Both the position numbers and the translations under genes were made by a program. 64,000 nt of DNA from NCBI GenBank assembly GCA_036704125.1, contig DATNQI010000008.1, positions 1-64,000 on the forward strand, in the 5' to 3' direction. Origin of the DNA: Pantanalinema sp. (GTDB taxonomy: Bacteria > Cyanobacteriota > Sericytochromatia > S15B-MN24 > UBA4093). The stretch's first letter is position 1. Every line of letters starts with the position of its first letter. Below the pieces are notes generated by a model that saw only the letters and a list, made by a program, of their open reading frames with translations, was not told where the DNA came from and searched no databases. Shown here piece after piece: positions 1,447 through 61,575 of the stretch.

Positions 1447-1450
1447 CCCC

Positions 1451-2713
1451 ATGCCGACCACCGCTGCCCAGAGCGCAGAAAAGCCAGGGCGCGTCCAGGA
1501 CGCCTTCCTGACGGGCCTCATCGCCCAGAAGCCCGAGCTTTCCGAGCGCCTCTCGGCCCTCACCCTGCCTTCCCCCAAGGACGAGGAGTGGCGCTTCACC
1601 AGCCTCGCAGCCCTCAAGGCCACGACCTTCGCCCCGGCCGCCCAGGCCCCCGACGTCACGCTCGAGGACATCGCGCCCTTCATCCTGAGCGAGGCCCAGG
1701 CGAGCCGCATGGTCTTCGTCAACGGCCTGCACGCGCCGCACCTCTCGGACGTGAGCGCGCTCGGCCACACCATCGCGTTCGCCTCCGAAAGCTGGGAAGC
1801 GACCGAAGACGACGCCTTCGACGCCCTGAACGCCATGTTCGCCACCGCCTCGACCGCGATCACGATTCCCCGCGCGCAGCTTGCGCCCTCGCCCATCCAC
1901 CTCCTGTTCGTGACCGTGCCGCAGGCCGAGCCCGTGATGGCCTCGCCCCGCGTGCGGGTGACCCTCGAGACCATGAGCGAGGCGACCCTCATCGAGGACT
2001 ACGTCGCCCTGGGCGACGGCCCCGCCTTCACCAACGCGGCGATCGCGTTCTCGGTGGCCGCCGGCGCGCGCCTCAAACACGTCCGGCTCCAGCGGGAGAA
2101 CAGGCAGACCCATCACCTGGGCCGCAGCGTGGCGACCCTTTCGCGCGACGCGGTCTACGACGCGCACGCCTTCAGCCTGGGAGGCGCCTTCTCGCGTTAC
2201 GAGCCGAAGGCCGTCCAGACCGACGAGGGCACCGACGTGCGCATGCACGGCCTCATGCTGCTCTCGGGCGAGCAGCTCGGCGACACCCACAGCACCCTGG
2301 ACCACGCCAGGCCTCACGGCACGAGCAACCAGGTCCACAAGTGCATCGTGGCGGGCTCGGCCCGCGCGGTCTTCAACGGCAAGATCCTGGTCCGCAAGGA
2401 CGCCCAGCAGACCAACTCGGCGCAGTCGAGCCGGAACTTGCTGCTCTCGCCCAGGGCCCGCGTCGACGCCAAGCCCCAGCTCGAGATCTTCGCCGATGAC
2501 GTGAAGTGCGCCCACGGCGCCACCGTCGGCCAGCTCGACCCCGAGGAGGTCTTCTACCTCCAGAGCCGCGGCCTCGGCGAGGCGGACGCCCGGAGCCTCC
2601 TGGTGTACGCGTTCGCCGCCGAGGTCTTCGATCACATCCCCGTCCCCTCGATCAAGGAGCTGCTGCGCACCCTCGTGCAGGAGCAGCTCCTGGCCACTCA
2701 GAGCGATAGGTGA
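1451..2713 (+). CDS. sufD: SufD, Fe-S cluster assembly scaffold subunit
   Basis: A 420-residue SufB/SufD-family protein. The N-terminal half is variable, with a KDEEWRFTSL motif near residue 40 that is common in SufD. The C-terminal beta-helix carries the family block SSRNLLLSPRARVDAKPQLE followed by DDVKCAHGATVG and EEVFYLQSRGL. SufD pairs with SufB and SufC and is needed for iron entry into the scaffold. The ATG lies four bases after the sufC stop, and sufS begins four bases after this stop, so it is an interior operon gene. Confidence 0.96.
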   Translation: MPTTAAQSAEKPGRVQDAFLTGLIAQKPELSERLSALTLPSPKDEEWRFTSLAALKATTFAPAAQAPDVTLEDIAPFILSEAQASRMVFVNGLHAPHLSDVSALGHTIAFASESWEATEDDAFDALNAMFATASTAITIPRAQLAPSPIHLLFVTVPQAEPVMASPRVRVTLETMSEATLIEDYVALGDGPAFTNAAIAFSVAAGARLKHVRLQRENRQTHHLGRSVATLSRDAVYDAHAFSLGGAFSRYEPKAVQTDEGTDVRMHGLMLLSGEQLGDTHSTLDHARPHGTSNQVHKCIVAGSARAVFNGKILVRKDAQQTNSAQSSRNLLLSPRARVDAKPQLEIFADDVKCAHGATVGQLDPEEVFYLQSRGLGEADARSLLVYAFAAEVFDHIPVPSIKELLRTLVQEQLLATQSDR

Positions 2714-2717
2714 GCCC

Positions 2718-3970
<1,253 letters not shown>

Positions 3971-5017: not shown

Positions 5018-5045
5018 GGGGGCGGTCGTTTGACCGCCCCCTTTT
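5018..5045 (+). terminator. Intrinsic terminator of the suf operon
   Basis: A perfect 10-bp stem, GGGGGCGGTC / GACCGCCCCC, with a four-base loop (GTTT), followed by TTTT. It lies 11 bases after the nfu stop. On the minus strand the same hairpin sits just past the stop of the last gene of the lipoprotein cluster, so it may also help end that transcript. Confidence 0.9.
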
Positions 5046-9279: not shown

Positions 9280-9283
9280 CGCC

Positions 9284-11482: not shown

Positions 11483-11573
11483 ACCTAACCCTCGCTTGCC
11501 CGTTCCTCCTTGGAGCGGGGGGCAAAAAGCCTGGCTGATTGTTATATTCCACAAGCAGGTAAGCGAATAACCA

Positions 11574-11596
11574 CCTGCATCACAGGCCGATGCAGG
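11574..11596 (-). repeat. Hairpin in the spacer between the two C-B cassettes
   Basis: The 138-bp spacer 11483-11620 is the only sizeable gap inside lipoprotein cluster I. It holds an 8-bp perfect inverted repeat CCTGCATC / GATGCAGG with a seven-base loop. There is no T-run on either strand, so a terminator is not shown. On the minus strand TATAAC (11541-11546) could be a -10 for the downstream C gene, but no good -35 is seen. Confidence 0.45.
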
Positions 11597-11620
11597 CCCA
11601 ACAGCATCGGGGCAGTGGCA

Positions 11621-13936: not shown

Positions 13937-13941
13937 GGCGC

Positions 13942-18095: not shown

Positions 18096-18190
18096 CCCAC
18101 CTCCCCCGCGAGCGCGGCGCCCGAGGGCGAAAAGAGCAGGCAAGCTCCTGAGTCATTCCACGGCCTCGCATCGCTGAAACCTAAGACACC

Positions 18191-47275: not shown

Positions 47276-49420
47276 TTACTTGGCGGCGCCGGCCATCATC
47301 TTCTCGACCTCTTCGGGCGCGACGCCCTTCTTGGTCAGGTTGATGCGACCCTGGCTGTCGACCTCGACGACCTTGACCACGACGATGTCACCGAGGTTGA
47401 CCACGTCTTCCACCTTCGCGACGCGCTCGGGGGCGAGCTGCGAGATGTGGATCAGGCCTTCCTTGCCGGGAAGGATCTCGACGAAGGCGCCGAAGTTGAG
47501 GATGCGGGTGACCTTGCCCTTGTAGACCGTGCCGACCTCGACGTCCTTGCAGAGGCGGTTGACCCACGCGACCGCGGCGTTGGCCGAGTCGGCGTCGGAG
47601 GTCGTGATGAAGACCGAGCCGTCGTCCTCGATGTCGATCTTGACGCCCGTCTCCTCGACGATGCGCTTGATCATCTTGCCGCCGGGGCCGATCAGGGTGC
47701 CGATCTTCTCCGGGTTGATCTTGAGGGTGATGATGCGCGGGGCGAACTCGCTGAGCTCGGTGCGCGGACGGGGGATCGCCGCCAGCATCTTGTCGAGGAT
47801 GAAGAGGCGGCCCTTGCGCGCCTGCTCCATGGCCATTTCCATGACCTCCAGCGAGATGCCGTGGATCTTGATGTCCATCTGCAGGGCGGTGATGCCGTCA
47901 CGGGTGCCCGTCACCTTGAAGTCCATGTCGCCGAGGTGATCCTCGATGCCCTGGATGTCGGTGAGGACGGCGAAGCGATCGCCTTCCTTGATGAGGCCCA
48001 TGGCCACGCCGGCGACCGGAGCCTTGATGGGCACGCCCGCGTCCATCAGGGACAGGGTCGAGCCGCAGGTCGAGGCCATCGAGGTCGAGCCGTTGGACTC
48101 GAGGGCCTCGGAGACCAGGCGAAGCGCGTAGGGGAACTCCTTGGGGTCCGGCAGGACCGGCAGGAGGGCGCGCTCGGCCAGAGCGCCGTGGCCGATCTCG
48201 CGGCGGCCGGGGCCGCGGCTGGGACGGACCTCACCGGTCGAGAAGCCGGGGAAGTTGTAGTGGTGCATGTAGCGCTTGCTGGTGATGGGGTCGAGCCCGT
48301 CGATCTTCTGGGCGTCACCCGAGGAGCCCAGCGTGCAAACGTTGAGGACCTGGGTTTGACCGCGGACGAAGAGGCCCGAGCCGTGCGTGCGGGGCAGGAC
48401 GCCCACTTCGCAGGTGATGGGGCGGATCTCGTCGAGCTTGCGGCCATCGATGCGCAGGCCCTGCTCGGTGACGAGCTTGCGGAGGATCTTCTTCTCGAGG
48501 TAGTAGAGCACGTCGCCGACGAGCTTGGGCTTGGCAGCGATCAGCTGGCCCAGCTCGCTGTCCTCGCTCTGGCCGGCGAGGGCCTCGCGGATCTCGGTCG
48601 AGAGCGCGTCGACGTTCTTCTGGCGGGCTTCCTTGTCGGCGTTCTGCAGGGCCTCGGTCATGCGGGCCATGTAGTCGTTGGCGAAGGCCACCAGGCGGCT
48701 GTCGAGCTCGGCCGGCTTCACGTCGAGCTTCTGCTTGCCGATTTCCTTGACGATCTCTTCCTGCCAGGCGCAGAGCTCGCGCACGGCGTCCCAGCCCACC
48801 TCGATGGCCTCGAGCACTTCGGCCTCGGGCACGAGCTTGATGCCGGCCTCGACCATCATGACGGCGTCCGCGGTACCCGCGACCACCAGGTCCATGTCGC
48901 TCTCGTCGGTCTCGGTGAAGGTGGGGTTGATCACCCACTCATCGTTGATGCGGCCGACGCGGACGCCACCGATGGGGCCGGCGAAGGGGATTTCGGAGAC
49001 CATCAGAGCGGCCGAGGCGCCAAGCATCGCGAGCACGTCGGGCTGGATGTTCTGGTCGCTCGAGAGCACGTAGGAGACGACCTGAACGTCGTTGCGGAAG
49101 CCGTTCGGGAACAGGGGGCGGATCGAGCGGTCGATCAGACGCCCAGCCAGGATGGCGTTCTCGGAGGCGCGGCCCTCGCGGCGCATGAAGCTGCCGGGGA
49201 CGCGGCCGACCGCGTACATCTTCTCTTCGTAGTCGACCAGCAGGGGGAAGAAGTCGATGCCCTCGCGGGGGGACTTCGACATGGTGGCCGAGACCAGCAC
49301 GGAGGTGCCGCCCGACTGGACGAGCACGGCACCGCTCGCCTGCTTGGCGTACTTGCCGAAGGTCATCGAGATGTCGTGGTCGCCGAGCTGGTAGCGATAG
49401 GTCTTCACTTCGTTGCTCAT
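47276..49420 (-). CDS. pnp: Polyribonucleotide nucleotidyltransferase (PNPase)
   Basis: A 714-residue phosphorolytic 3'-5' exoribonuclease. Two RNase PH domains are present (FFPLLVDYEEKMYAVGRVPG; FSTGEVRPSRGPGRREIGHG and GDMDFKVTGTRDGITALQMD), then a KH domain (IGPGGKMIKRIVEETGVKI) and an S1 domain (GKVTRILNFGAFVEILPGKE). The length is normal. It follows rpsO after a 125-bp spacer that holds a stable hairpin, and ends at a strong terminator. Confidence 0.97.
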   Translation of the reverse strand: MSNEVKTYRYQLGDHDISMTFGKYAKQASGAVLVQSGGTSVLVSATMSKSPREGIDFFPLLVDYEEKMYAVGRVPGSFMRREGRASENAILAGRLIDRSIRPLFPNGFRNDVQVVSYVLSSDQNIQPDVLAMLGASAALMVSEIPFAGPIGGVRVGRINDEWVINPTFTETDESDMDLVVAGTADAVMMVEAGIKLVPEAEVLEAIEVGWDAVRELCAWQEEIVKEIGKQKLDVKPAELDSRLVAFANDYMARMTEALQNADKEARQKNVDALSTEIREALAGQSEDSELGQLIAAKPKLVGDVLYYLEKKILRKLVTEQGLRIDGRKLDEIRPITCEVGVLPRTHGSGLFVRGQTQVLNVCTLGSSGDAQKIDGLDPITSKRYMHHYNFPGFSTGEVRPSRGPGRREIGHGALAERALLPVLPDPKEFPYALRLVSEALESNGSTSMASTCGSTLSLMDAGVPIKAPVAGVAMGLIKEGDRFAVLTDIQGIEDHLGDMDFKVTGTRDGITALQMDIKIHGISLEVMEMAMEQARKGRLFILDKMLAAIPRPRTELSEFAPRIITLKINPEKIGTLIGPGGKMIKRIVEETGVKIDIEDDGSVFITTSDADSANAAVAWVNRLCKDVEVGTVYKGKVTRILNFGAFVEILPGKEGLIHISQLAPERVAKVEDVVNLGDIVVVKVVEVDSQGRINLTKKGVAPEEVEKMMAGAAK

Positions 49421-49502
49421 GGTTCTTACTCTCTTCTCTTCACTTTCCGATGGGAGCCCTTCCGTCCGCGAGGCGATGGGTCGGGCCGTTCTTTAAGATG
49501 CG

Positions 49503-49532
49503 AAGCCGGCCACCCGAGAGGGGGACCGGCTT
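49503..49532 (-). promoter_or_regulatory. Hairpin in the rpsO-pnp spacer
   Basis: AAGCCGG / CCGGCTT arms (49503-49509, 49526-49532) with further pairing inside around a short loop. There is no T-run. In E. coli a hairpin at this place is an RNase III processing site controlling pnp; a similar role is possible here. Confidence 0.5.
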
Positions 49533-49545
49533 TGGCGTCGCTCGT

Positions 49546-49815
49546 TTACTTACGAAGGCCGAGCTTGCCGATGATGGAGCGGTAGCGGGCCAGGTCGTTC
49601 TTCATGAGGTAGGCCAGAAGGCGACGGCGCTGACCGACCATCTTGAGAAGGCCGCGACGCGACGCGAAGTCCTTCTTGTTGCGGGTCAGGTGCTCGCTGA
49701 GCTGCTCGATCTTGGCGGTCAGCAGCGCGATCTGGACCTCGGGCGAGCCGTTGTCAGCGTCGTTGCGCTTGTGCTCGGCGATGATCTGGGTCTTGGTTTC
49801 CTTGAGAAGCGGCAA
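49546..49815 (-). CDS. rpsO: Ribosomal protein S15
   Basis: An 89-residue S15 with standard length and motifs ([47 protein letters not shown]). The start is TTG, with AGGAGG about nine bases upstream; no ATG fits. It binds 16S rRNA in the platform of the small subunit, and in other bacteria it represses its own translation. It is transcribed toward pnp. Confidence 0.97.
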
Positions 49816-49905
49816 AGGTTTTTCCTCCTACATGCGCGGCGAATAGGGTCGCCGTGCGGCGTTCGTCGGACCCGAGGGGGGTGGTAGGCCACCGTCCCGT
49901 GAGTC

Positions 49906-49927
49906 GAGCCGTCGATTCGACCGGCTC
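49906..49927 (-). promoter_or_regulatory. Structured rpsO leader
   Basis: The ~135-base leader between the rpsO promoter and start holds a hairpin with GAGCCG / CGGCTC arms and an inner TCGA / TCGA pairing. A second stem, GGCGA / TCGCC, lies nearer the gene at about 49832-49848. Such leaders often bind S15. No fit to a known S15 site was established. Confidence 0.4.
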
Positions 49928-49957
49928 TCAGTGCAATCCCTATGACTGACGCCCCTG

Positions 49958-49986
49958 ATTATAGCAAAAAGATTAAGGATATCCAA
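49958..49986 (-). promoter_or_regulatory. rpsO promoter (extended -10)
   Basis: On the minus strand TGCTATAAT gives a perfect TATAAT (49958-49963) with an extended TGn. TTGGAT lies 17 bp upstream (49981-49986) as a partial -35. The rest of the spacer 49816-50138 holds the leader and no gene. Confidence 0.7.
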
Positions 49987-50138
49987 TCTGCTCGCTAAGA
50001 ATGGCTTGGCTGCTCCCCCTTTCACCGGGAAGAATCGAATAAATGTTCGAGTTCCGGGTAGAAAAGTCGTGGTCACCGACTTGCAGCCCGCCACGCCGCC
50101 CCATGACCCTTTCTCGAGACGCTCAAAGGAGGTTCATC

Positions 50139-50726
50139 ATGGAGCGGCGGCACGTCATCAACCTGCAAGGGCAGGAGTTCGTCACCTACGAGGGCTTGCT
50201 CAACGAGGCCCACCAGCTCGGCCTCCAGGCCATCCGCACTCACCTGGTGCAGTTGCCCGCCGCCGACAACGGCCATCTGGCCGTGGTCACCGCCGAGGTC
50301 GAGCTGGAGGGCGGCAAGGTGTTCACCGGGATCGGGGACGCGAGCACCTCAAATGTCGGCCCCGCCATCGCCAGGCACCTGGTGCGAATGGCGGAGACCA
50401 GAGCCAAGGCTCGTGCCCTGCGCGACGCGGTCAACATCGGCATGACGGCCCTCGAGGAGCTGGGCGAACTCGAGCAGGCGCCGACTCGGCCGGCTTCCAC
50501 CCCCGAGGCCCACGTGCTGGCGGCGGCTCCGGGCCGACTTGCAACCCCCAAGCAGATCAACAAGGTCGCCGCCGAGATGGCCCGGGCGGGGTGGAGCGAC
50601 CAGGACGGCCGCGACTACCTGATCCAGCGCTTCAACAAGCTCAGCCGCAGCGAGCTGACGACCTCCGAGATCAGCCTGATGATCGACCATCTGATCGCCC
50701 TGCCGGACAAGAAAGCAGCGGTGTGA
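50139..50726 (+). CDS. Possible Rad52/DdrA-like single-strand annealing protein
   Basis: A 195-residue protein. Residues 10-115 carry GGKVFTGIGDASTSNVGPA followed by LVRMAETRAKARALRDA, a pattern found in Rad52/DdrA-like DNA annealing proteins and related phage genes. A linker (about 115-140) leads to a C-terminal ~50-residue helical part (TPKQINKVAAEMARAGWS; LTTSEISLMIDHL). The ATG at 50139 has AAAGGAGG about six bases upstream; a longer frame is unsupported. It stands alone on the plus strand between two minus-strand operons. The assignment rests on recalled pattern only. Confidence 0.55.
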   Translation: MERRHVINLQGQEFVTYEGLLNEAHQLGLQAIRTHLVQLPAADNGHLAVVTAEVELEGGKVFTGIGDASTSNVGPAIARHLVRMAETRAKARALRDAVNIGMTALEELGELEQAPTRPASTPEAHVLAAAPGRLATPKQINKVAAEMARAGWSDQDGRDYLIQRFNKLSRSELTTSEISLMIDHLIALPDKKAAV

Positions 50727-50742
50727 TCAGCAGAAGGGAGGC

Positions 50743-52683
50743 TCAGGGGCAGACCACCCGGATGCGGTAATTGCCGAGGTCCGTCACGTAGAGCTCACCG
50801 GAGGGGCCCAGCTTGACGTCATAGACGTACCCGAATCTCGCCGCGGCGAGGCTTCCGTCTGCGAAGCTCTGAACCCCACCCGTGAGGGTCGTGACCACGC
50901 CCCCCGGCGCGATGCGCCGGATGGCGTAGTTGCGGGAATCCGCCACGTAGAGCTCGCCGCTCCCGTCGCGACACAGACCGGTGGGCTGGTAAAACGAAGC
51001 CCCCGTTCCCGTTCCGTCCCCGGCGCCGGGAACGGCGGTCGGCGATCCCACGTAGGTCGAAACGACCCCCGCCGGCGAGATCTTTCGGATGCGGTTCCCG
51101 CCGTACTCCGTCACGTAGAGATCGCCCGACGGATCCAGGAGCATGTCGACCGGGTCTCTGAACTGGGCCGTGAGTAACGAACCGTCCGCATCCCCCGCCG
51201 TCCCCGTTCCTGCGAAGGTGGTGACCACCCCGGTCGGACCGACCCGGCGGATCCGGTGGTTCCCGCGGTCGGCGACGAGCAGATCTCCGCTCGGCAGGAC
51301 GCACATCCCGTAGGGGTTCTTGAACTGCGCCATGTGGGCCGGCCCGTCGTAATACCCCTCGGGGCCTGCCCCCGCCAGGGTCGTGACGGTGCCGCCGGGC
51401 GTGATCTTGCGGATGGCGTTGTTGAACCACTCGCTGACGTAGATGTTGCCCTGGGGATCGAGCACCGCCCGGCAACCGCCGTTGAAGCGTGCGCTCGGCC
51501 CCTGAGCGTCGGCGAAGCCGGTCACGTCGCCACCCGCCAGGGTCGATACCGCCCCCTCGAGGGTCAGGCGCCGGACGCGCGAGAAGTCCCCGGTCATGAT
51601 GAAGGCACCGTCCCGCAACGCGGAGAGACCGACCGGCCTGAAGGCCGCCGATGCGCCCTGGCCATCTCCTGTCGGGTTCGTTCGGGTCGACTGGTCTGCC
51701 CTGCCGCCCCCCGCGAGCGTCCCGACCGTGCCCTTGATGAGCAGGAAGGGGCTGATGGTCTGCGTCGCCCCGTTGGGCTGCTGCACGGTGAACGGGGCGC
51801 AGAAGGCGCCGGCGGGCACGCTCATGGTCGCGGTGCTTCGATCGGCGCTCACGCTCCAGGTGGCGGCCGGCACGGTCCCGAACCAGAAGACGTTGCGCCC
51901 GTCCAGGCGGTCAAGGTTGGTGCCCCGGATGGTCACGATCGAGCCGGTCGAGGGGATGGCCGGGCTGTAGCCCGCGATCCAGGGGACCCCGGTGGCCAGG
52001 CGATAGGTGTCGGCGGCCGAATCGTAGCCGATCGAGGCGAGGGGGTCCTGGTCCAGGGCGATCGCGCTCCCCACCAGGCCCAGGACCTTCGAGAAATCGC
52101 TCGCGGCAAGCCCCGTCCCGACGTCGTTGAAGGTGCTGCCGCTGATGGAGTTGACCAGCTTTTCGAGCGGCACCGATTGCCCCGCTTGCTGCTTGAGGCT
52201 CGTCAGCGTCGCCAGCGCCGTGGTCGCCGCGCTCACCACGATGCCGACGTTGGGGGTGGCGTTGGTGAAGCTCTGCCAGCCCTCGTTCCAGACGAGCAGC
52301 GTCCGAATGCGGGCCGCCTTGGTACCCGGGCGGTTTGAAGCCCCGCCGACCGAGAGCCCCTTCTGGGCCTCCAGGACAAACGCGTCTCCCGCGCGAGGGG
52401 CGAGCCCCGCGAAGTTCAGCACGAAGCCCCCGCCGGCGTCCGTCAGCGAGGTCGAGACGGAGTTCCCGCTCCGAGCGTCGATCAACGACACCGTCGCACC
52501 GCTCACCACCTCGCTCAGCTCCGACTGCGCCTGCCGATCGGCCGCGGGGAACTCCGCGCGACCGACCAAGTGAGCTGCGGCCGAGGAGACCGGCGGACGC
52601 GCGCCGCTTGGCATGGAAACCTGGCAGCCGATGAGTGCCAGCGAAAGGGCCATGAGCGCGGCGCGCAAGACGGAAGGCTTCAT
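50743..52683 (-). CDS. NHL-repeat IPT-like lipoprotein, type Y (last gene of cluster II)
   Basis: A 646-residue predicted lipoprotein, lipobox LIGC (C20). Domains in order: the shared N-terminal module (about 35-240; FVLEAQKGLSVGG, ARIRTLLVWNEGW, TTALATLTSLK, ALDQDPLASIGYD), an IPT/TIG-like Ig fold (about 250-340; GSIVTIRGTNLDRLDGRNV), and five or six NHL repeats (about 355-646; GNIYVSEWFNNAIRKITPGG). The ATG at 52683 begins the signal peptide with TAGGAG upstream. It is the closest paralogue of 54601-56538, which shares the IPT block almost word for word. Confidence 0.84.
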   Translation of the reverse strand: MKPSVLRAALMALSLALIGCQVSMPSGARPPVSSAAAHLVGRAEFPAADRQAQSELSEVVSGATVSLIDARSGNSVSTSLTDAGGGFVLNFAGLAPRAGDAFVLEAQKGLSVGGASNRPGTKAARIRTLLVWNEGWQSFTNATPNVGIVVSAATTALATLTSLKQQAGQSVPLEKLVNSISGSTFNDVGTGLAASDFSKVLGLVGSAIALDQDPLASIGYDSAADTYRLATGVPWIAGYSPAIPSTGSIVTIRGTNLDRLDGRNVFWFGTVPAATWSVSADRSTATMSVPAGAFCAPFTVQQPNGATQTISPFLLIKGTVGTLAGGGRADQSTRTNPTGDGQGASAAFRPVGLSALRDGAFIMTGDFSRVRRLTLEGAVSTLAGGDVTGFADAQGPSARFNGGCRAVLDPQGNIYVSEWFNNAIRKITPGGTVTTLAGAGPEGYYDGPAHMAQFKNPYGMCVLPSGDLLVADRGNHRIRRVGPTGVVTTFAGTGTAGDADGSLLTAQFRDPVDMLLDPSGDLYVTEYGGNRIRKISPAGVVSTYVGSPTAVPGAGDGTGTGASFYQPTGLCRDGSGELYVADSRNYAIRRIAPGGVVTTLTGGVQSFADGSLAAARFGYVYDVKLGPSGELYVTDLGNYRIRVVCP

Positions 52684-52693
52684 CCTCGAACTC

Positions 52694-54604
52694 CTACGGC
52701 ACGTACATCCGGATCCGCTGCCCCCACTCCTCGATGATGAACACCCGCCCCGCCTGGTCCACCCACAGGTCGAAGGGGCCGTGAAGGGTCGCGCTGAGGG
52801 CCGCTCCATCGCGCGTCCCGGCCGCCCCCGTGCCGACGAGGGTGGTCACCACCCCGTCCGGGGTCACGCGGCGCACCACATTCCCGGCGCGCTCGGCGAC
52901 CAGCAGGTTGCCGGCGCGGTCGAAGGTGAGCCCCGCGGGCTGGTTGAACTTGGCGCTGGAGGTGGCGCCGTCGACGAAGCCCGAGGTGCTCCCGGCGACG
53001 GTCGTCACCACCCCGGCCGGGGTGACCTTGCGGATCCGGTGGTTGCCATAATCCGCCACGAAGAGGTTGCCCTGAGGATCGAGCGCGATGTCGAACGGTT
53101 GATTGAACCTTGCGGCCGTCCCGGTGCCGTCCGTGGTGCCGGCGGCCGCAGGCACGCTCCCGGCGAGGGTGGTCACGGTGCCGTCAGGGGTGATCTTGCG
53201 GATGTTGTGGTTGCCGTAGTCGCTCACGAAGAGGTTTCCCGCGGCATCCAACACCAGCTGGTCGGGCCGGTAGAACTGGGCGGCGGTCCCCACCCCATCG
53301 AGGTTGCCCTGGGTCCCTCCCGCGAAGGTGCTGACCATGCCGTCCGGGGTGATCTTCCGGATGCGATTGTTGAATTCCTCCCCGACGTAGAGGCTGCCGT
53401 CCCGCGCCACTGCCACCGAGATCGGATTGTCGAACATGGCGCTGGCCGCAGGCCCGTCCGCGAAGCCCTTGACCCCGCTCCCCGCGACCGTCGTCACCAC
53501 CCCGGCCGGGGTGATCTTGCGGATGACGGCGTTCCAGGCGTCCGCCAGGTAGACGTTGCCGTCCGCGTCCAGGCCGGGGCTGCATGGGAGGTTGAAGCCG
53601 GCCTGGGTTCCCACGCCGTCGAGCCTCGAAGCGTCGCCGCGACCGACCCAGATGCCCGTGGTCCCCCTGACCTCCACGAAGGGGCCCGTCCAGGTGCTCG
53701 CCCCCTGCGTCAGCCGCAGCCAGCCGCTGTGGCCATCGGCCGGTATCGTGACCGCGAGGCGGCGGCGATCGGGGCTGACCGACCAGGCGACCGGAGCCTC
53801 GCCGATCGTCAAGCGCGTGTCGGCGCGTGGAGCGGGGAAGTTCTGGCCCGAGAAGGTGACGGTGCTGCCCGTGGAGGCGGGACTCGGAGAGTAGGCGTCG
53901 TAGATCAGCAGCTCGCCGGGCTTGAGGCCGTAGGTCGCGCCCGTCGCGTCATAGGCGACGCTCTCGATCGGGTCGCGATCGCTCGCGATCGCCTCCTCCA
54001 CCAGGGCGAGCACCTTCTCGTACTCCGGGCCCGAGATCCCCGTGGCCCCGGGGGTGAAGGCAAGCCCATCCGCTCCGAGGCAGCCGGCAAGGGCGCTCAA
54101 CGGCAGGCCCCGCAAGGCGGCGACGAGGCTCACGGCCGTGGTGCCGCCGCTCAGGGCGATGGGGCCGTCGACCCCCGCGTTGGTCAGGCTGAGCCAGTCG
54201 CCGCCCTGGTAAAGGAGCACCGAGCGCAGGCGCGCGACGGCGCTCCCCGCGCGGTTGGCCTGGTCGCCCACGGCGAGGCCCTTCGAGGCTTCCAGGTAGT
54301 AGGCGCGCGCCGCGACGAGACTCGAAGCGCTCGGGGCGAGATAGAACCGGCCGTCGGCGGCGCTCAGGGCGGTGGCGACGCTCAGCCCCGTGAGCGAGTC
54401 GATCAAGGAGAGGGTGGCCCCGCTGGCCACGTCGGCGAACGTGGCCTGGGCAACGCGCCCCGCAGTCGTGATCCGTCCCTCGACCGGGACGATCGCGCTC
54501 GCCACGGCGGCGCCGTCCGGCGAAGTTGGCGCCGGTCCCGAGAGGGGGCAGCCCGCGAGCGCGAGAATCAGGACAGGGAGCAGGGTCTTGCTTCGTATCT
54601 TCAT
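52694..54604 (-). CDS. NHL-repeat IPT-like lipoprotein, type X (cluster II)
   Basis: A 636-residue predicted lipoprotein, lipobox LAGC (C19). Shared N-terminal module (YYLEASKGLAVGDQANRAG, ARLRSVLLYQGGDWLSLTNA, SDRDPIESVAYD), then an IPT/TIG-like fold (GSTVTFSGQNFPAPRADTRL) with a GWLRLTQG strand, then NHL repeats (GNVYLADAWNAVIRKITPAG and later units) forming the propeller. It is a paralogue of 56555-58408, which has the same IPT variant. Its ATG overlaps the stop of 54601-56538 by four bases, and its stop lies ten bases before the next start. Confidence 0.84.
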   Translation of the reverse strand: MKIRSKTLLPVLILALAGCPLSGPAPTSPDGAAVASAIVPVEGRITTAGRVAQATFADVASGATLSLIDSLTGLSVATALSAADGRFYLAPSASSLVAARAYYLEASKGLAVGDQANRAGSAVARLRSVLLYQGGDWLSLTNAGVDGPIALSGGTTAVSLVAALRGLPLSALAGCLGADGLAFTPGATGISGPEYEKVLALVEEAIASDRDPIESVAYDATGATYGLKPGELLIYDAYSPSPASTGSTVTFSGQNFPAPRADTRLTIGEAPVAWSVSPDRRRLAVTIPADGHSGWLRLTQGASTWTGPFVEVRGTTGIWVGRGDASRLDGVGTQAGFNLPCSPGLDADGNVYLADAWNAVIRKITPAGVVTTVAGSGVKGFADGPAASAMFDNPISVAVARDGSLYVGEEFNNRIRKITPDGMVSTFAGGTQGNLDGVGTAAQFYRPDQLVLDAAGNLFVSDYGNHNIRKITPDGTVTTLAGSVPAAAGTTDGTGTAARFNQPFDIALDPQGNLFVADYGNHRIRKVTPAGVVTTVAGSTSGFVDGATSSAKFNQPAGLTFDRAGNLLVAERAGNVVRRVTPDGVVTTLVGTGAAGTRDGAALSATLHGPFDLWVDQAGRVFIIEEWGQRIRMYVP

Positions 54605-56538
54605 GGGCAGATCACCCGGATCGTGTGGTTGAGGTTGTCCGCCACGTACACGTTCCCCCTGGAATCCACGGCGACCCCGTAGGGCCGGTAGAACTGGGCG
54701 ATCCCGACCGCGCCGTCACGGGAGCCCGAAACCCCGGTGCCCGCGATGGTGGTGACCGCCCCGCTCGGCGAGATCTTTCGGATGGCGTGGTTCCCCGAAT
54801 CGGCGAGGTAGAGGTTCCCGGCCGAATCGATCTTCATGCCGACAGGGTCGCTGAAGCGCGCCGCGCTCCCCAGGCCGTCCACAAAGCCCGGCGACGCGGC
54901 GAGGCCCGCGAAGGTGGTCACCGTTCCCGATGCCGAGATGCGGCGGATGGCGTGGTTCATGTAATCCACCACGTACACGGCGCCATCGACACCGGGCTGC
55001 ACACTGCAGGGCCCCTTGAAGAGCGCGCTGCCGGTGGCGCCGTCGGTGGAGCCGGCGGCGCCACCGGCGAAGGTGCTGACCACCCCGCCGCTGAGGCGCC
55101 GGATTCGGTTGTTCGATTGATCGCCGATCAGCAGGTCCCCGTTGCCGAGGATGCAGAGCCCGAAGGACTGGTTGAACTGGGCGCTCAACGCTGGGCCGTC
55201 CAGGTATCCTGGCGTCGCGGTGCCCGCGACCGTGGTGAGCGTGCCGCCCAGCGTCAGCCGGCGGACCCGGGCCCCGTCCACGTACTCGGTGAAGTACAGG
55301 GAGTTGACGCCGTCGAAGGCCATGGCACTCGCACCCGAGAGCCTCGCGCTGGTCCCCACCCCGTCGACGCACGCCTGGGTTCCATCGCCCGCCAGGGTCG
55401 AGACCTCCCCCGAGGGGGTGATCCGGCGAATCCGCCGGTTGTAGAGCTCGCTCGCGTACAGGTTGCCCGCGTTGTCGAACACCAGGTCGTTGACCCCGTC
55501 GAACAGGGCGACGCGCCCGGGCCCGTCGGCGAAGCCCTTCTGCGTGGGCATGCCGGCAAAAGTCCCGACCGTTCCCTTGATGAGCAGCATGGGCCGGATC
55601 ACCTGCGCCACGCCACTGGGCTGCTGAAGCGAGAAGGGGCCGCAGTAGGCTTGCGCGGGCACGCTCATGGTCGCCGTCGCGCGATCGGGACTCACGCTCC
55701 AGGTGGCGGCGGCGTAGTTGCCGAACCAGAAGGTGCTGCGCCCGTTCAGCCTGTCCAGGTTGCTGCCCCGCAGGGTGAGGACCTGCCCGGGAGCGGGGCT
55801 TTCGGGCGAGAGGCTCGAAATCCAGGGGGTGCCGACGGCGAGGCGATAGGTGCCGGTGGCACCGTCGAAGGCGATGGCCGAGAGAGGGTCCTGGTCCAGC
55901 TCGAGGGCGTTGCTCACCAGCTGGAGGACCGGCTGGAAGTCGGCCGCATCGCTGAGCCCCGTCCCGGATGGGTTGAAGGTGCTCCCGCTCACCTTGTTGA
56001 CCAGCAGGCTCGGGTCCAGGCCAATGCCCGCTTGCTGCTTCAGACCCACCACCACGCTCAAGGCGGTCGTCGCAGCGCCGATCGAGATCCCGCTGTTGGG
56101 GGTCGCGTTGGTCAGGCTCTGCCAGCCGTCGTTCCAGAACAGCAGGGTCCGGATGCGCACCGCGGCAGCTCCGGGTCGATCGGGCAACCCACCCACCGAC
56201 AGACCCTTCACCGCCTCCAGGAGATAGCGGCTGCCGTTGACCGGGGCGATGCCCTTGAAGTCCAGGGTGAAGGCGCCCGAGGCATCGGTCAGAGCGCTGG
56301 CGACGGTGAGGCCCGTGGCGGCGTCGATCAGCGAGACGGCGGCCCCGCCCGTGGCCTCGGCGAGGCTGGACTGAAGCGCCCGAACGGGTGCGACGAAGCT
56401 TGTCCGGCCGCGAATCGCCGGCACCTCGGTCGAGACGGTTTGCCCGGCGCGCGAGCCCACGGGCGCCAGGCAGCCGCTCGCCCCGATCGCCAGGGCGATC
56501 GCAAGCGCGCAAACGCCCATCCTTGCAGCCCGAACCAT
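54601..56538 (-). CDS. NHL-repeat IPT-like lipoprotein, type Y' (cluster II)
   Basis: A 645-residue predicted lipoprotein, lipobox GASGC (C23). Shared N-terminal module (YLLEAVKGLSVGGLPDRPG, VRIRTLLFWNDGWQSLTNAT, ELDQDPLSAIAFDG), IPT/TIG-like fold (GQVLTLRGSNLDRLNGRSTF; CGPFSLQQPSGVAQVIRPML) and NHL repeats to the end (GNLYASELYNRRIRRITPSG; GNVYVADNLNHTIRVICP). The ATG at 56538 begins the signal peptide; 34 further upstream codons are open but lack one. It is paired in order and type with 50743-52683. Confidence 0.84.
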   Translation of the reverse strand: MVRAARMGVCALAIALAIGASGCLAPVGSRAGQTVSTEVPAIRGRTSFVAPVRALQSSLAEATGGAAVSLIDAATGLTVASALTDASGAFTLDFKGIAPVNGSRYLLEAVKGLSVGGLPDRPGAAAVRIRTLLFWNDGWQSLTNATPNSGISIGAATTALSVVVGLKQQAGIGLDPSLLVNKVSGSTFNPSGTGLSDAADFQPVLQLVSNALELDQDPLSAIAFDGATGTYRLAVGTPWISSLSPESPAPGQVLTLRGSNLDRLNGRSTFWFGNYAAATWSVSPDRATATMSVPAQAYCGPFSLQQPSGVAQVIRPMLLIKGTVGTFAGMPTQKGFADGPGRVALFDGVNDLVFDNAGNLYASELYNRRIRRITPSGEVSTLAGDGTQACVDGVGTSARLSGASAMAFDGVNSLYFTEYVDGARVRRLTLGGTLTTVAGTATPGYLDGPALSAQFNQSFGLCILGNGDLLIGDQSNNRIRRLSGGVVSTFAGGAAGSTDGATGSALFKGPCSVQPGVDGAVYVVDYMNHAIRRISASGTVTTFAGLAASPGFVDGLGSAARFSDPVGMKIDSAGNLYLADSGNHAIRKISPSGAVTTIAGTGVSGSRDGAVGIAQFYRPYGVAVDSRGNVYVADNLNHTIRVICP

Positions 56539-56554
56539 CACGCCCCTCCCGTCG

Positions 56555-58408
56555 CTACGGCACATAGACCCGGATCCTTCGGTTCTTGCTGTCGCCGATG
56601 TAGACCAGGCCATCGGAGGCCACCTTGAGGTGATGCGCATAATTCAGGAGGGCCTGCAGGGGCGGCCCCTCCGCGAAGCCGGCGACAGTCGCCTTGCCCG
56701 CCACGGTGGTGACCACGCCGCCGGACGTCACCTTGCGGATGCAGTGGTTCTGGAGATCGGCGACGTAGACGTTCCCCGAGCCATCGACGCTGACCCCCTT
56801 GAGCGCGCCGAACCTGGCGCCCGCCCCCGTCCCGTCCAGGTAGCCGTATGTTCCTCCGGCCAGGGTGCTGACCACTCCGCCCGAGATCTTGCGCACGCGG
56901 CCGTTGCTCCACTCGCCCACGTACACATTGGCGCCCGCCGCGTCCACCGTGATGCCGTAGGGCTCGTTGAAGGTCGCGCTCGAGGTGGCCGCGTCGCCGG
57001 CCCCGGGCGCCCCGGTTCCCGCGAAGGTGGAGACCACTCCCTGCGGGGTGATGCGACGGATCTTGTTGTTGGCCAGATCGGCCACGTAGAGGTTGCCGGC
57101 CCCGTCCAGCGCCAGGTCGCTCGGCTGGTTGAAGGTGGCGCTCGCACCCGGGCCATCCTGAGCGCCGGTGCTCCCGGCCCCGGCCAGCACGCTCACCGCC
57201 CCGTTCGAGGCGACCTTCGAGATGCGGTGCGCCGCGCGCTCGCACACGTACACGTCGCCCGCAGCATCGACCGCGAGGCCACTGACCCCGATGAAGACGC
57301 CGTGCGGCACAAGCAGGGTGCTCGCGCCGCTCGGGCTCAGGCGCGTGAGCCCCTGGGCCGAGATGTAGTAAAGGTCTCCCGTCGCGCCGAGGGTATGCAC
57401 CTCGGCCATGGCCCACGGATCGAGCGGATCGCCCGAGTAGGTGCCGACGGTCCCGGGGACCCTCACGAAGGGGCCCGTCCAGCGGGCAGTCCCCTGGGCG
57501 ATGCGGATCCAGCCGCTCGCGCCGCTCGCAGGAACGGTGACGGTCAGCTGGGTGCGCGACGCGTTGAGGGTCCAGGGCACGGGGCTCTCGCCCAGGTAGA
57601 CGAGCGTGTCCGAGCGGGGAACCGGCAGGTTCTGGCCGGTCACCACCACCGTGCTGCCGGTGGCCGCCGACAGGTGGCCCGCCGTAGGGTGCAGGACCAG
57701 ATCGGCCGGTTTGAGGCCGTAGCGGGCGCTTGCGGGCGAAAGGGTCGGATCGTAGCCGAGGGCGGCGACCGGATCCCGATCGCCCGCGATCGCCGCTCCC
57801 ACCAGCGCATCGACGGCGGCGAACTCGTCGGAAGCGATCGCGCTGGTGGCCGGCTTGAAGGTCGCGTCGCTCCCCGCGAGCGTCCCCACCAGCGAGGACA
57901 GCGCCAGCGAGCGTATCTCCCCGATGAGGGCGACGGCCGTGGTTCGGGTGCTCATGACGATCGGATCGCCGGGCTGCGCGTTGCTGAGGCTGACCCAGCC
58001 CCCGGGCGCGAAGAACAGGACGGTCCTGAGGCGCGCGGCGGCCGCCCCGGCCCGGTTGGCCGTCCCCCCGGCGCCGAGGCCCTTGAGGGCCTCCAGGTAG
58101 TAGGGCCGCCCGCCGACCGGCGACACCCCGGGCAACCGCAACTGGAAGCTTCCCCCGGGCGCGCTGACGGTGGTCCCGAGCGTCAGGCCCGTCGCCCCGT
58201 CGACGAGGGCGACCGTCGCCCCGCTCGCGATCTCGAGGACCTGGGCCTGCGCGGCGCGATCCTCGCCGAGGATGCGCCCCTCGACGGGCGGGGCCGAGAC
58301 GACGGCCTCGCCGCTGGCCCCTTGGCTCGCGGTGTGCGAGGCGGGCGGCTGGCAGCCAGCAACGAGCAAGCAGCCAAGCGCGCAGAGCGAAGCCAGACGA
58401 CGGCGCAT
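56555..58408 (-). CDS. NHL-repeat IPT-like lipoprotein, type X' (cluster II)
   Basis: A 617-residue predicted lipoprotein, lipobox LVAGC (C19). Shared N-terminal module (YYLEALKGLGAGGTANRAG, ARLRTVLFFAPGGWVSLSNA, AGDRDPVAALGYDP), IPT/TIG-like fold (GSTVVVTGQNLPVPRSDTLV) with GWIRIAQG, then NHL repeats (GNLYVADLANNKIRRITPQG). The ATG at 58408 is preferred with GGGGGAGG five bases upstream; GTG at 58414 is an alternative. It begins two bases after the stop of 58411-59568 and is paired in type with 52694-54604. Confidence 0.84.
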   Translation of the reverse strand: MRRRLASLCALGCLLVAGCQPPASHTASQGASGEAVVSAPPVEGRILGEDRAAQAQVLEIASGATVALVDGATGLTLGTTVSAPGGSFQLRLPGVSPVGGRPYYLEALKGLGAGGTANRAGAAAARLRTVLFFAPGGWVSLSNAQPGDPIVMSTRTTAVALIGEIRSLALSSLVGTLAGSDATFKPATSAIASDEFAAVDALVGAAIAGDRDPVAALGYDPTLSPASARYGLKPADLVLHPTAGHLSAATGSTVVVTGQNLPVPRSDTLVYLGESPVPWTLNASRTQLTVTVPASGASGWIRIAQGTARWTGPFVRVPGTVGTYSGDPLDPWAMAEVHTLGATGDLYYISAQGLTRLSPSGASTLLVPHGVFIGVSGLAVDAAGDVYVCERAAHRISKVASNGAVSVLAGAGSTGAQDGPGASATFNQPSDLALDGAGNLYVADLANNKIRRITPQGVVSTFAGTGAPGAGDAATSSATFNEPYGITVDAAGANVYVGEWSNGRVRKISGGVVSTLAGGTYGYLDGTGAGARFGALKGVSVDGSGNVYVADLQNHCIRKVTSGGVVTTVAGKATVAGFAEGPPLQALLNYAHHLKVASDGLVYIGDSKNRRIRVYVP

Positions 58409-58410
58409 GG

Positions 58411-59568
58411 TCACCTCCCCCAGACGGGCACGGCCCGGCCCAGGAGCGGGTCGAAAAACCAGATCCGTCCCAGGCCATCCCTCGACGATCCTCGCGGCGT
58501 GAGGGGAAGGGCGAAGGCCCCGGACAGCGCCTCACCCTCGTAGAGGTAGGCCCGGCCGTCGTCGCACCCCACCCAGATTCGCGAGCCGGAAGGCTGCAGG
58601 CAAAGGGGCGTCGCGCTCAGCGGGATCGTGACGGGCGCGGCGGTGGCGCTGGCAAGCCGCGTCAAGGTCCGCGCGGTGCGGTTCGCCGTCCAGACGGCGC
58701 CGTCATCGCTCACCGCCACGCTCCGGGGCCCCGCCCCCACGATCACGGGCGCTCGGAGCTCCGCTCCGGTCGAGCGATCGAGGCGCAAGAGCCGGTCGCC
58801 GGTCGTCACGACCCAGGCGGAAGTCGCGTCGAGGGCGATCGCCGTCGCCCCCGGCACCGCAATGCTCGTCACCGCGAGGCTCGTCTTGTGGACGCGCGTC
58901 ACCGTACCAGCCGCCTGGCTGCACAGCCAGATCGCGTCGCCGGCATCGATCGTGTCGCTCGGCTCCGCGGAAAGGGCAACGCCCTGCCGCCGCCAGTCAT
59001 CGAACATGCCGGGGGTGAAGCGCGCCAGCTCGTCGTCCCCCGCCACCCAGACCGACCCGTCGTCATCCGCTCGCACGAAAAGCGGGTTCGCGGGCAGCGT
59101 GACGGCCAGCGGCTGCTCGGATCCTTGCGAGCCCGTGCGCACGAGGGCCGATGGGGTGAGGACCCATGGCACGGTCTCGCGCGGGCTCACCGCCAGATCC
59201 CGCGCGTCGAGCGCGCTCACGCCAACCCCGACGTGACCGAGCGGGGTCGGGGTGGGCGCAGGTGGCACGTAAGGGGTGGGAACGGTGTCGACCGACGGCG
59301 TCGGCATGCCGGGGTCGGTCCCGACCGACACGCTCGTCGTGGGCGTCGGGGTGGGCGTGGGCGTTGCGGCAGGGGGCGGCGTCGGCGTCGATCCCGAATT
59401 TCCTTGCCCGCCACTTCCCGCGCCGTTCCCGGTGCTCCCCTCGATCGTGGTGTCGCCTCCCAGGCCGGGGCCCACCCCGGTCACGACGGGGGCATCGTCC
59501 TCCGTCGCGCAGCCGATGACGAGCGCAAGCAGGAGGGAGGCAAGGGCGAGGGATAGACGGTTACGCAT
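58411..59568 (-). CDS. Lipoprotein with Pro/Thr linker and propeller-like repeats (cluster II)
   Basis: A 385-residue predicted lipoprotein, lipobox VIGC (C20). A Gly/Ser-rich then Pro/Thr-rich low-complexity linker (about 30-112; TPTPTPT runs) holds the C-terminal region away from the membrane. The last ~270 residues have blade-like repeats (DDDGSVWVAGDDELARFTPG, SDDGAVWTANRTARTLTRL, GRIWFFDPLL) of the streptogramin-lyase/YVTN type rather than NHL. It lacks the shared N-terminal module. It lies nine bases after the first gene of the cluster. Confidence 0.78.
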   Translation of the reverse strand: MRNRLSLALASLLLALVIGCATEDDAPVVTGVGPGLGGDTTIEGSTGNGAGSGGQGNSGSTPTPPPAATPTPTPTPTTSVSVGTDPGMPTPSVDTVPTPYVPPAPTPTPLGHVGVGVSALDARDLAVSPRETVPWVLTPSALVRTGSQGSEQPLAVTLPANPLFVRADDDGSVWVAGDDELARFTPGMFDDWRRQGVALSAEPSDTIDAGDAIWLCSQAAGTVTRVHKTSLAVTSIAVPGATAIALDATSAWVVTTGDRLLRLDRSTGAELRAPVIVGAGPRSVAVSDDGAVWTANRTARTLTRLASATAAPVTIPLSATPLCLQPSGSRIWVGCDDGRAYLYEGEALSGAFALPLTPRGSSRDGLGRIWFFDPLLGRAVPVWGR

Positions 59569-59577
59569 GGCAGGCCT

Positions 59578-60600
59578 TCAAGGTGAGCCGATTTGGCCGC
59601 TGGTGACCCCGGCCGATTCGGTGGCGATCCCTCCGGCGATGGCGCCGGTGACGCGGAAGCTGGACGTGCTCGCCATCAGGCTGCCCACGCGGACCTGGAC
59701 CGGGCCGCTGGTCGCACCGAAGGGCACGCTCACCTCCAGGCGGTTGGGTGTCGCCGCGTTGACGCTCGCCCCCGCACCGTTGAAGGTGACGGAATTGCTT
59801 GCAGGCAAAAGATTGAACCCCACGCCGAGGACCGACACCGTGGCACCCACGCTCGCGCTCGGCGGCACGACCCCCGAGATGGCGAGCGATCCGCCTCCGG
59901 CTGCCCCTCGCACCCAGGTATTCGGCAACACCAGCGAGACCCCAGCGACCGGATCGCCATCCCCCGAGAGCAGCGCGCCGACGATGTCACTTATCCTCTG
60001 GACGTCGAGCGCCGAAATCCCGCCCTGCGGGACGTAGTTCCCGTCCGAGGGCCGGTAGCTCCCGATCAAGGCGGAGAAATCGACCGGATCGGGGTTCTGA
60101 TGCCGCAGGGCCGCGGCGATCGCGATCGCCGTCGTTCCCTGGTCCACCACGATGCCGGAGCCCGGCAGGGCGTTGGTCAGGGTGACCCAGCCGGAGTTGA
60201 AGCGTGCGATCGTGCGGATGCGGGCCGCAGTATTGCCTGGCCGGTTGGCCGAAAGCCCCTTGACGGCCTCGAGGTAGTAGGACTCGGTGGCGCTCGGCCG
60301 GAACGCTCGCGGGAAGCTGAGGACGAAGCCGCCGTTCTCGTTGGTGACGGACGAGGCCTCGGTCCGGTTGCGCTCGGCGTTGATGAGCGAGACCGTGGCG
60401 CGGTTGCCGATTTCGACGAGCCCCGCCTGGACCTGCCGCGCATCCGCCGCGTCGAAGGAGACCCGCCCGACGAGTTCGGGGGCCACCGGCCCCGGAGCGG
60501 ATGGCGCGCCGATGCAGCCGAAAAGAAGGAGCGCCCCCGACAGAGGGGCGGCCCACAGCAGCTTCCGCGCAGCGTGGCCAGATCGACGGATGGTCGGCAT
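59578..60600 (-). CDS. IPT/TIG-like lipoprotein with shared N-terminal module (first gene of cluster II)
   Basis: A 340-residue predicted lipoprotein, lipobox LLFGC (C29). It has the shared N-terminal module (VGRVSFDAADARQVQ, YYLEAVKGLSANRPG, ARIRTIARFNSGWVTLTNAL, SGDGDPVAGVS) and one IPT/TIG-like fold at the C-terminus (ASVGATVSVLGVGFNLLPAS), but no NHL repeats, so it is the shortest form of the family. The ATG at 60600 begins the signal peptide, with GGAG seven bases upstream; a 32-codon extension is unsupported. TATAAC at 60652-60657 (minus strand) is a possible -10 for the six-gene operon, without a clear -35. Confidence 0.8.
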   Translation of the reverse strand: MPTIRRSGHAARKLLWAAPLSGALLLFGCIGAPSAPGPVAPELVGRVSFDAADARQVQAGLVEIGNRATVSLINAERNRTEASSVTNENGGFVLSFPRAFRPSATESYYLEAVKGLSANRPGNTAARIRTIARFNSGWVTLTNALPGSGIVVDQGTTAIAIAAALRHQNPDPVDFSALIGSYRPSDGNYVPQGGISALDVQRISDIVGALLSGDGDPVAGVSLVLPNTWVRGAAGGGSLAISGVVPPSASVGATVSVLGVGFNLLPASNSVTFNGAGASVNAATPNRLEVSVPFGATSGPVQVRVGSLMASTSSFRVTGAIAGGIATESAGVTSGQIGSP

Positions 60601-60804
60601 AGGGGTCTCCAGGGGCGAGCCCAAGACAGGGGCAAGAAGGCCCACTTGGCAGTTATACCCACCCGAGGGCCGATCCGCATCCAAAGTGCGCACCACGCTT
60701 CCAGCAACCTATCGAGAGCGAGATCGGGGCGCTCGCTCGAGCGCGCCGATCCCCTCGTCACATCCCCCCGGCGAGGAATTCCGGCATGGGGTAGGATAGG
60801 CGGC

Positions 60805-61575
60805 ATGCGACACGACCTGGTGACGATAAAGCATCTTGACTGCATCGCCTTCCTGCGCGAGCTCCCGGCCGATTCGGTCGACGTGATCACGACGGACCCG
60901 GCCTACTCGGGGATGAACCAGCACCTCAAGCTGGGCCGGGGGCGGATCGTGGGCCGTTACGGGGACGCGTCCGACCCGCGCTGGTTCAAGGAGTTCGCGG
61001 ACGATCCGATCACCTACCGCGCGTTCCTGGCGGAATGCGCCCGGGTACTGAAGCCCGATCGCCACCTCTACCTGATGTTCGACAGCTTCTCCCTGCTCTC
61101 GCTGGGCGCGCTGGTGCGCGAGCACTTCGCCGTCAAGAACCTCATCGTCTGGGACAAGCGCTCCATCGGCATGGGGCACTACTTCCGCAGGCGGCACGAG
61201 CACATCGTCTTTGCCGCCAAGGGCAACCGCAAGCTCTCGAGGCGCGACATCCCCGACGTGTGGACCTTCAGCCGCCTGACGCGCGCCAAGTACCCCACCC
61301 AGAAGCCGGTGGAGCTGTTCGAGGCCATGCTCGCGGGCTCGGCCGAGCCAGGCTTCGTCGTCTGCGACCCCTTCGTGGGCAGCGGCTCGGCCGCGATCGC
61401 AGCCCTCAGGCACGGCTGCAGCTTCGTGGGCGCCGACATCGCGGAACGGGCGGTCGCCTTTGCCCGCGAGCGCGTGGCGGCGTTCCTCGCCAGCGGCATC
61501 GATCCCGGCCAGGCGCCGCAAAAAGAGCGGCCCCCGTACCTGGGGCCGCTCAATGACGTGACGGGCGAGGCCTAG
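60805..61575 (+). CDS. DNA methyltransferase, beta-class (N6-adenine or N4-cytosine)
   Basis: A 256-residue methyltransferase. Motif IV is TTDPAYSGMN (DPAY at 31-34) and comes before motif I (CDPFVGSGSAAIAAL, 188-202), the beta-class order. YPTQKPVELFEAM precedes motif I as usual. The protein is short, with little room for a target-recognition domain, and no restriction gene is nearby, so it is an orphan enzyme. The ATG at 60805 has TAGG upstream; the frame is open far to the left only as shadow of the antisense gene. It converges with udk, and the two stops overlap in CTAG (61572-61575). Confidence 0.88.
   Translation: MRHDLVTIKHLDCIAFLRELPADSVDVITTDPAYSGMNQHLKLGRGRIVGRYGDASDPRWFKEFADDPITYRAFLAECARVLKPDRHLYLMFDSFSLLSLGALVREHFAVKNLIVWDKRSIGMGHYFRRRHEHIVFAAKGNRKLSRRDIPDVWTFSRLTRAKYPTQKPVELFEAMLAGSAEPGFVVCDPFVGSGSAAIAALRHGCSFVGADIAERAVAFARERVAAFLASGIDPGQAPQKERPPYLGPLNDVTGEA

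Follow-up and report, generated by a model that had tools for sequence, protein, structure and literature searches.

In the 64,000-nucleotide stretch of the Pantanalinema sp. genome analyzed here (contig DATNQI010000008.1, hereafter the window), four predicted lipoprotein genes, designated X', Y', X and Y, follow one another on the minus strand and alternate in their relationships, X' pairing with X and Y' with Y. The comparative analysis of these genes points to tandem copying of a two-gene X-Y unit, by which an arrangement W-X-Y (W being a further predicted lipoprotein gene) would have become the present W-X'-Y'-X-Y, a history to which we assign a probability of about 0.82. A first-pass annotation of the same sequence had proposed this duplication from the four open reading frames (ORFs), which are present where it placed them on the minus strand, and from the motifs of their IPT domains, which were recovered in all four proteins (GQNFPAPRADT in X and GQNLPVPRSDT in X'; GTNLDRLDGR in Y and GSNLDRLNGR in Y'); trees and a single W-X-Y set in a relative now make it the best-supported history. 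That annotation did not contain two further results: the X-Y pair is older than its duplication, and mismatched adjacent pairs are common in the gene family. Events in which two genes are copied together in tandem are of an ordinary kind, and the habit of mismatched pairing across the order is the more interesting result.

All four proteins begin with a signal-peptide-like stretch that bears a lipobox-like cysteine; an N-terminal domain (about 200 residues) and an IPT domain come next, and NHL repeats occupy roughly another 300-330 residues. The alternation between types that had been proposed for them holds in every region with signal. Over the whole protein, BLASTP identity is 49% for Y-Y' and 42% for X-X', as opposed to 34-39% for the four cross pairs. 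The difference is larger in the N-terminal domain (55% and 48% vs 39-41%) and larger still in the IPT domain (63% and 50% vs 26-35%). The grouping of neighbors (X' with Y'), which the first-pass annotation had named as the result that would overturn its proposal, was rejected in a four-sequence topology test for the N-terminal domain (approximately unbiased test, p-AU 0.001), the IPT domain (<1e-60) and the whole protein (<1e-47). Leaving aside the NHL region taken alone, alternate genes group and neighbors do not, which is the pattern that identifies a tandem two-gene duplication. Four two-copy DNA repeat families (D6, D9, D14 and D16, the last merely 32 nt long) are 71-78% identical and recur at offsets of 3.79-3.85 kb, equal to the two-gene period. 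With protein identities of 42-49% between them, the copies are old. Trees of both the IPT and NHL regions had been suggested as a check on the alternation; the former bear it out, whereas the latter proved nearly uninformative, for their blades do not match by position. NHL identities show no real difference (43% for Y-Y', 41% for X-X' and 40-42% for cross pairs), and the best match of an individual blade lies mostly at another position, in another protein. Since the blades match out of register, the NHL region has largely lost its historical record, and we do not rest the case on its trees.

Relatives of the N-terminal plus IPT module were searched for in ten genomes of the window's order, among which we distinguish the window's own genome (G000), its nearest relative, from the same family (G001), and a member of another family (G007). 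Matches at E <= 1e-30 were obtained at 76 places in seven of the ten genomes, and the window's own genome accounts for 21 of these places; loci were chosen by a match at this threshold to five window proteins, with distant members under-sampled and some neighbors hidden by contig ends. Outside the order, matches at E <= 1e-10 (best 4e-18) were found in three of 14 genomes, all three within the class. A search of a genome-contig collection with Y' found no relative, and a search of the same collection with the Y protein of G007 gave four loci, titled Treponema, Nitrospinae, Alphaproteobacteria and Rudanella, with the match confined to query residues 294-643, the propeller half.

The resulting trees, in which branch supports were read per split from unrooted topologies, place the window genes beside those of G007. 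The largest contains 94 modules (96 proteins with a module match minus two spanning fewer than 180 model positions) and joins Y with Y' (0.98), these with one G007 gene (0.985), and the X/X' group with another G007 gene and a gene of G009 (1.0). A tree of 18 sequences recovers X with X' (94.5/96), Y with Y' (93/95), the X group with its G007 and G009 relatives (99.4/100), the Y group with that of G007 (100/100) and all seven genes together (96.5/91), and family trees built from the N-terminal domain only (94 sequences) or the IPT domain only (79) also contain X+X' and Y+Y' as clans, likewise with the G007 and G009 relatives. In G007 the two genes stand on contig C94 (L041), X at about 1020-3011 and Y thereafter (to 4993), preceded by a homologue of W that is cut by the contig end and matches the window protein at 1e-18 (tblastn) and 1e-19 (phmmer). 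The relative thus has a single unit, W-X-Y, in the same order as W-X'-Y'-X-Y in the window. Because the G007 pair is made of the same X and Y types, these types predate the duplication. Among ten topologies for the seven sequences, duplication after the split from the G007 lineage was best (p-AU 0.95), the grouping of neighbors was worse by 161 log-likelihood units and orthology of the G007 pair to X'-Y' was rejected (p-AU 0.040); a six-sequence IPT tree also favors Y with Y' (75.6/64). A duplication postdating the split from the G007 lineage is favored by these comparisons. X and Y would then be anciently diverged paralogues kept adjacent as a co-directional, tightly spaced pair, and the entire unit downstream of W would have been copied in tandem in the lineage of the window.

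The pairing of unlike genes extends well beyond X and Y. In a plain tandem array produced by single-gene copying, neighbors are expected to be closest relatives. We assembled 31 pairs of adjacent family genes (same strand, less than 400 bp apart) from 50 fetched stretches plus the window, and in 29 of them the neighbors are not nearest relatives, the exceptions being K-K (L072) and T-T (L075). Nearest-relative neighbors number 2/31 by the N-terminal region only and 1/25 by the IPT domain only, or 5/31 and 7/25, respectively, if only relatives from the same genome are counted. Co-inheritance of the two members was addressed with a mirror test on 25 pairs, after dropping six of the 31 adjacencies that link overlapping pairs. 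The distances separating first members and those separating second members give a Pearson correlation of 0.57, whereas shuffles average 0.00 (standard deviation 0.07) and none of 5000 reaches the observed value; moreover, the nearest pair is identical by either member for 13 of the 25 pairs (shuffled mean 1.1, maximum 6 in 2000). Gene classes (X, Y, U, V, A, B, P, Q, S, T, K and Z) were assigned after the tree, and neither the count of nearest-relative neighbors nor the main mirror test depends on them. In terms of these classes, X-Y and A-B recur three times each, and U-V, a pair of lipoproteins whose complete forms have about 1150 residues, keeps its order in five genomes (L049, L050, L052, L056 and L079). 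Short-long S-T pairs, with a short member of about 350 residues, occur in both orders at nine places in five genomes (L048, L051, L053, L057, L060, L061, L074, L082 and L085), and in G006 an alternating run, S-P-Q-P', reaches the edge of its contig (L089 7171-15443), and another contig has an incomplete P with Q after it (L090 1-3575). Mismatched neighbors hence prevail in several pair types across genera, the reverse of a plain tandem array. Sequence alone can thereby suggest which surface proteins might be acting jointly in a poorly known lineage, and it makes X-Y, U-V, A-B-E (E being a third gene type, described below) and P-Q candidates for direct interaction.

Several observations nonetheless weigh against the late duplication of an X-Y unit, or against the generality of mismatched pairing. 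The comparison with a single pair relies on one genome, in which contig C94 begins inside W, and the X gene of G009 runs off its contig. Support in the 94-sequence tree is only 0.62 for X with X' and only 0.51 for all seven X/Y genes together, the NHL region prefers the alternating tree without rejecting the others (p-AU 0.052), and the X-Y junction of G007 is an ATGA overlap, differing from both window copies. As for the pairs, random placement also yields low nearest-relative counts, so that this count counters only single-gene tandem copying, and the rank correlation in the mirror test is weak (Spearman 0.23). Regarding the date, seven of the nine alternating topologies are unrejected by p-AU, including one that implies duplication before the split, with the G007 pair grouped with X-Y (0.099), and several mixed arrangements; a six-sequence N-terminal tree places Y weakly with the Y of G007 (54.5/61), and in the family tree built from IPT domains only, X has the G009 gene as its closest tip. 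These results would suit a unit doubled before the split from the G007 lineage, with later loss of one copy in G007 or orthology of its unit to one of the two copies. We regard such an early doubling as unlikely in view of the first rank of late duplication among the ten topologies, the rejection of the link between the G007 pair and X'-Y', and the support for X+X' and Y+Y' in the 18-sequence tree. Independent duplication of X and Y, with alternation resulting from chance insertion, seems highly improbable. The lower identity of X-X' than of Y-Y' (42% vs 49%) could reflect different dates, but X-type genes may simply evolve faster. This scenario calls for two insertions, both in register and in the same orientation, and it is also opposed by the recurrence of the X|Y junction form in both copies, a repeat period of about 3.8 kb and the co-inheritance of other pairs in the order. 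Hardly any weight can be given to duplication of neighbors with later gene conversion between alternate genes, in which the N-terminal and IPT parts were converted and the NHL repeats kept the older history. The NHL region does give almost no support for alternation, yet it gives none for neighbor grouping either, and the alternating tree remains its best; out-of-register blade matches are typical of saturated repeats, and the same X and Y types are present in the G007 pair.

A different kind of alternative concerns the reason why the duplicated unit persisted. Our tentative proposal, held at slightly less than even odds, is that the unit may have been copied and kept because X and Y act jointly at the cell surface, perhaps as a pair that binds a glycan or another extracellular ligand, and are needed in matched amounts. 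It is quite possible, though on balance doubtful, that the tandem copying took place as described and X and Y are not partners, duplication of the operon having carried both genes and the copies persisting through gene dosage or lack of deletion. Lone family members do exist, K-K and T-T neighbors are nearest relatives, S-T pairs appear in both orders, and the X-Y partnership is one that we infer from the pair's recurrence as a unit. Against this stand the prevalence of mismatched pairs, their co-inheritance across genera and the single order of U-V in five genomes. Extended to the whole order, joint action of X and Y would lead to a group of non-photosynthetic relatives of Cyanobacteria with a surface made from a lipoprotein family of its own, most members of which occur in obligate mismatched pairs (X-Y, U-V, A-B, P-Q and short-long). 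Every pair would descend from an old duplication, its two members fixed as hetero-partners and multiplied together, in a paralogous analogue of SusC-SusD; we consider this generalization unlikely in its full form. The photosystem family PF00124 was found in none of the eight genomes searched in the window's class, as opposed to five of six searched elsewhere in the same phylum, in line with a non-photosynthetic class of Cyanobacteriota, probably Sericytochromatia.

The architecture of the proteins is consistent with a binding role. By eye, the lipoboxes of X (LAGC), X' (VAGC), Y (LIGC) and W (VIGC) fit the motif of a signal peptide that ends in a lipobox cysteine, those of Y' (ASGC) and Z (LFGC; Z being the gene that heads the run) deviate, and the proteins are predicted to be lipidated and located at the surface. 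TIG (PF01833, cut-off 20.9 bits) scores 24.5 in X, 24.4 in X', 21.4 in Y' and 24.5 in Z, and falls just below the cut-off in Y (19.6), whose modelled IPT domain matches solved IPT domains. NHL (PF01436, cut-off 20 bits) reaches 67.6-91.5 bits in all four proteins, in which TEN_NHL (PF25021) is also above its cut-off; the propeller similarity of W is weak, with Vgb_lyase (E 7e-4) and NHL (E 4e-3) both below cut-off. The model of X has a mean predicted local distance difference test score (pLDDT) of 84, with a poorly modelled start and a propeller block of pLDDT 86-97 from residue 301, which matches NHLRC2 and SOQ1 with Z-scores of 42-44. In the N-terminal plus IPT model of Y (mean pLDDT 88), the IPT domain matches Bacteroides IPT-propeller proteins and SGBP-B (Z-scores of 11-12.7 for both), as well as the corresponding domain of cyclodextrin glucanotransferases. 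No Pfam or NCBIfam name was obtained above cut-off for the N-terminal domain in the family proteins scanned, CarboxypepD_reg (in Y') and bMG3 (in one G000 protein) remaining below it. Other scanned members of the family carry LamG, CBM_4_9 or Kelch domains; of two long members of S-T pairs, one has Kelch repeats and the other IPT domains only. Propeller models named after enzymes also exceed Pfam cut-offs (SGL in all four proteins, PhoX and Phytase-like in X); they overlap the NHL repeats and score lower, and catalysis by the X and Y proteins appears unlikely.

The closest structural parallels are found in Bacteroides, where 3tc9 (BT_3476), 4hw6 (BACOVA_00264), 3kya and 3hrp likewise consist of an IPT domain followed by an NHL-like propeller. 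Their IPT domains match with Z-scores of 11.5-12.7 over 85-88 residues, and the full model of X with 30.9-33.5. The IPT-plus-propeller combination by which Bacteroides auxiliary nutrient-binding and SGBP-type proteins are recognized is seen in X, and its IPT part also in Y. Differences are nevertheless substantial: the Bacteroides chains belong to another phylum and are 409-496 residues long, their alignment to the Y module does not begin before residue 207, leaving most of the N-terminal domain unmatched, and 3tc9 and 3kya superpose on X with a root-mean-square deviation of 9-10 and a differing domain arrangement. Their entry titles read 'auxiliary nutrient binding protein' (3tc9 and 4hw6) and 'putative phosphatase' (3kya), a title not being a tested function. 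SGBP-B (7k44, 5e7g and 6d2y) has IPT-type domains in common (Z-scores of 11.0-12.5), with the match confined to the IPT domain of the module. The X propeller is 37% identical over residues 313-636 to the teneurin-like 9ifo (Z-score 39.2), but X, X', Y and Y' show no other teneurin domain (Pfam, E <= 0.1). The best NCBIfam similarity of all four proteins, restricted to the propeller, is to ScyD, ScyE and ScyF of scytonemin biosynthesis; scores of 57-90 bits for ScyF and 40-55 for ScyD/E are far below the cut-offs of 350 and 80, and membership was rejected. The X and Y proteins may bind a glycan or other extracellular ligand at the surface. The titles and opening parts of abstracts consulted on Sericytochromatia, on NHL/IPT lipoproteins and on paralogous pairs, a partial coverage with few subscription journals, do not name the family.

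The gene run itself is longer than originally described, since the four genes of the first-pass annotation are directly preceded, in the same orientation, by Z and W (Table 1). The six co-directional genes, Z-W-X'-Y'-X-Y, are separated by gaps of at most 16 nt or overlap by 4 nt, and they probably form one transcript. Y and Y' probably start at 52683 and 56538/56541, respectively, rather than at the ORF maxima, and X' may begin at a GTG overlapping the W stop or at an ATG at 58408, 2 nt past that stop. The W|X' and Y'|X junctions are GTGA or ATGA overlaps, and at X'|Y' and X|Y a TAG stop is followed by a gap of 10-16 nt. Both G007 junctions, W|X and X|Y, are overlaps, and the gap form is therefore not general.

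Table 1. Positions in the window of the genes of the lipoprotein run and of the modules used in the family tree.
Feature	Position	Strand	Description
Z	59578..60600	-	Short predicted lipoprotein, N-terminal domain and IPT only; heads the run
W	58411..59568	-	Predicted lipoprotein with Pro/Thr-rich linker; homologue precedes X in G007
X'	56555..58414	-	Upstream unit, gene 1; 13-16 nt gap to Y'
Y'	54601..56538	-	Upstream unit, gene 2; ATGA overlap with X
X	52694..54604	-	Predicted lipoprotein, N-terminal domain, IPT and NHL propeller; downstream unit, gene 1; Y 10 nt away
Y	50743..52683	-	Predicted lipoprotein, N-terminal domain, IPT and NHL repeats; downstream unit, gene 2
N-terminal + IPT module of X'	57425..58408	-	Entered in family tree
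N-terminal + IPT module of Y'	55546..56526	-	Entered in family tree
N-terminal + IPT module of X	53636..54604	-	Entered in family tree
N-terminal + IPT module of Y	51703..52683	-	Entered in family tree; modelled, mean pLDDT 87.8

A second lipoprotein run in the window, cluster I (5045-18107), had been attributed to the same process. As a kind of event the comparison is fair, since this run alternates too, in the order E1-A1-B1-A2-B2-E2; it is not the same event, and it involves a different type of pair (A has NHL and LamG domains, and B has CBM_4_9 and LamG) with a larger unit. Contig C18 of the window's own genome carries a single A-B-E set (L081, 1974-8479), from which it follows that cluster I is built on a unit of three genes or more; the run resembles A-B-E imperfectly repeated. 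Identity between the cluster I copies is 52% for A, 53% for B and 48% for E, the A and B copies being somewhat more alike than those of X and Y, and the C18 set is 46-49% (A), 46-48% (B) and 46-50% (E) identical to the window copies.

The X-Y run lies between the genes for uridine kinase and polynucleotide phosphorylase (pnp), which are about 12 kb apart in the window (49420-61572) and 0.5-0.55 kb apart in G004 and G009, 1.8 kb in G002 and 2.2 kb in G008; in the remaining genomes the two genes are on separate contigs or one was not found. The window ORF at 50043-50726 (plus strand, 227 residues) has a homologue (68% identical) in G001 (L097) that adjoins pnp there as the ORF does in the window, and the 7.8 kb fetched beyond this homologue contain no match to X or Y at 1e-25. 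In G001 the X-Y pair might have been lost, might never have been present or might lie in unassembled sequence. In G007 the pair is on C94, apart from the contigs carrying uridine kinase or pnp, and the X-Y pair therefore has no fixed genomic place. The U-V pair of G007 begins about 2.5 kb downstream of uridine kinase. The window also contains, in the interval that separates the lipoprotein run from uridine kinase, a plus-strand ORF (60900-61575) with a DPAY-type methylase motif, identified by eye, a homologue of which lies in the 1.8 kb interval between pnp and uridine kinase in G002.

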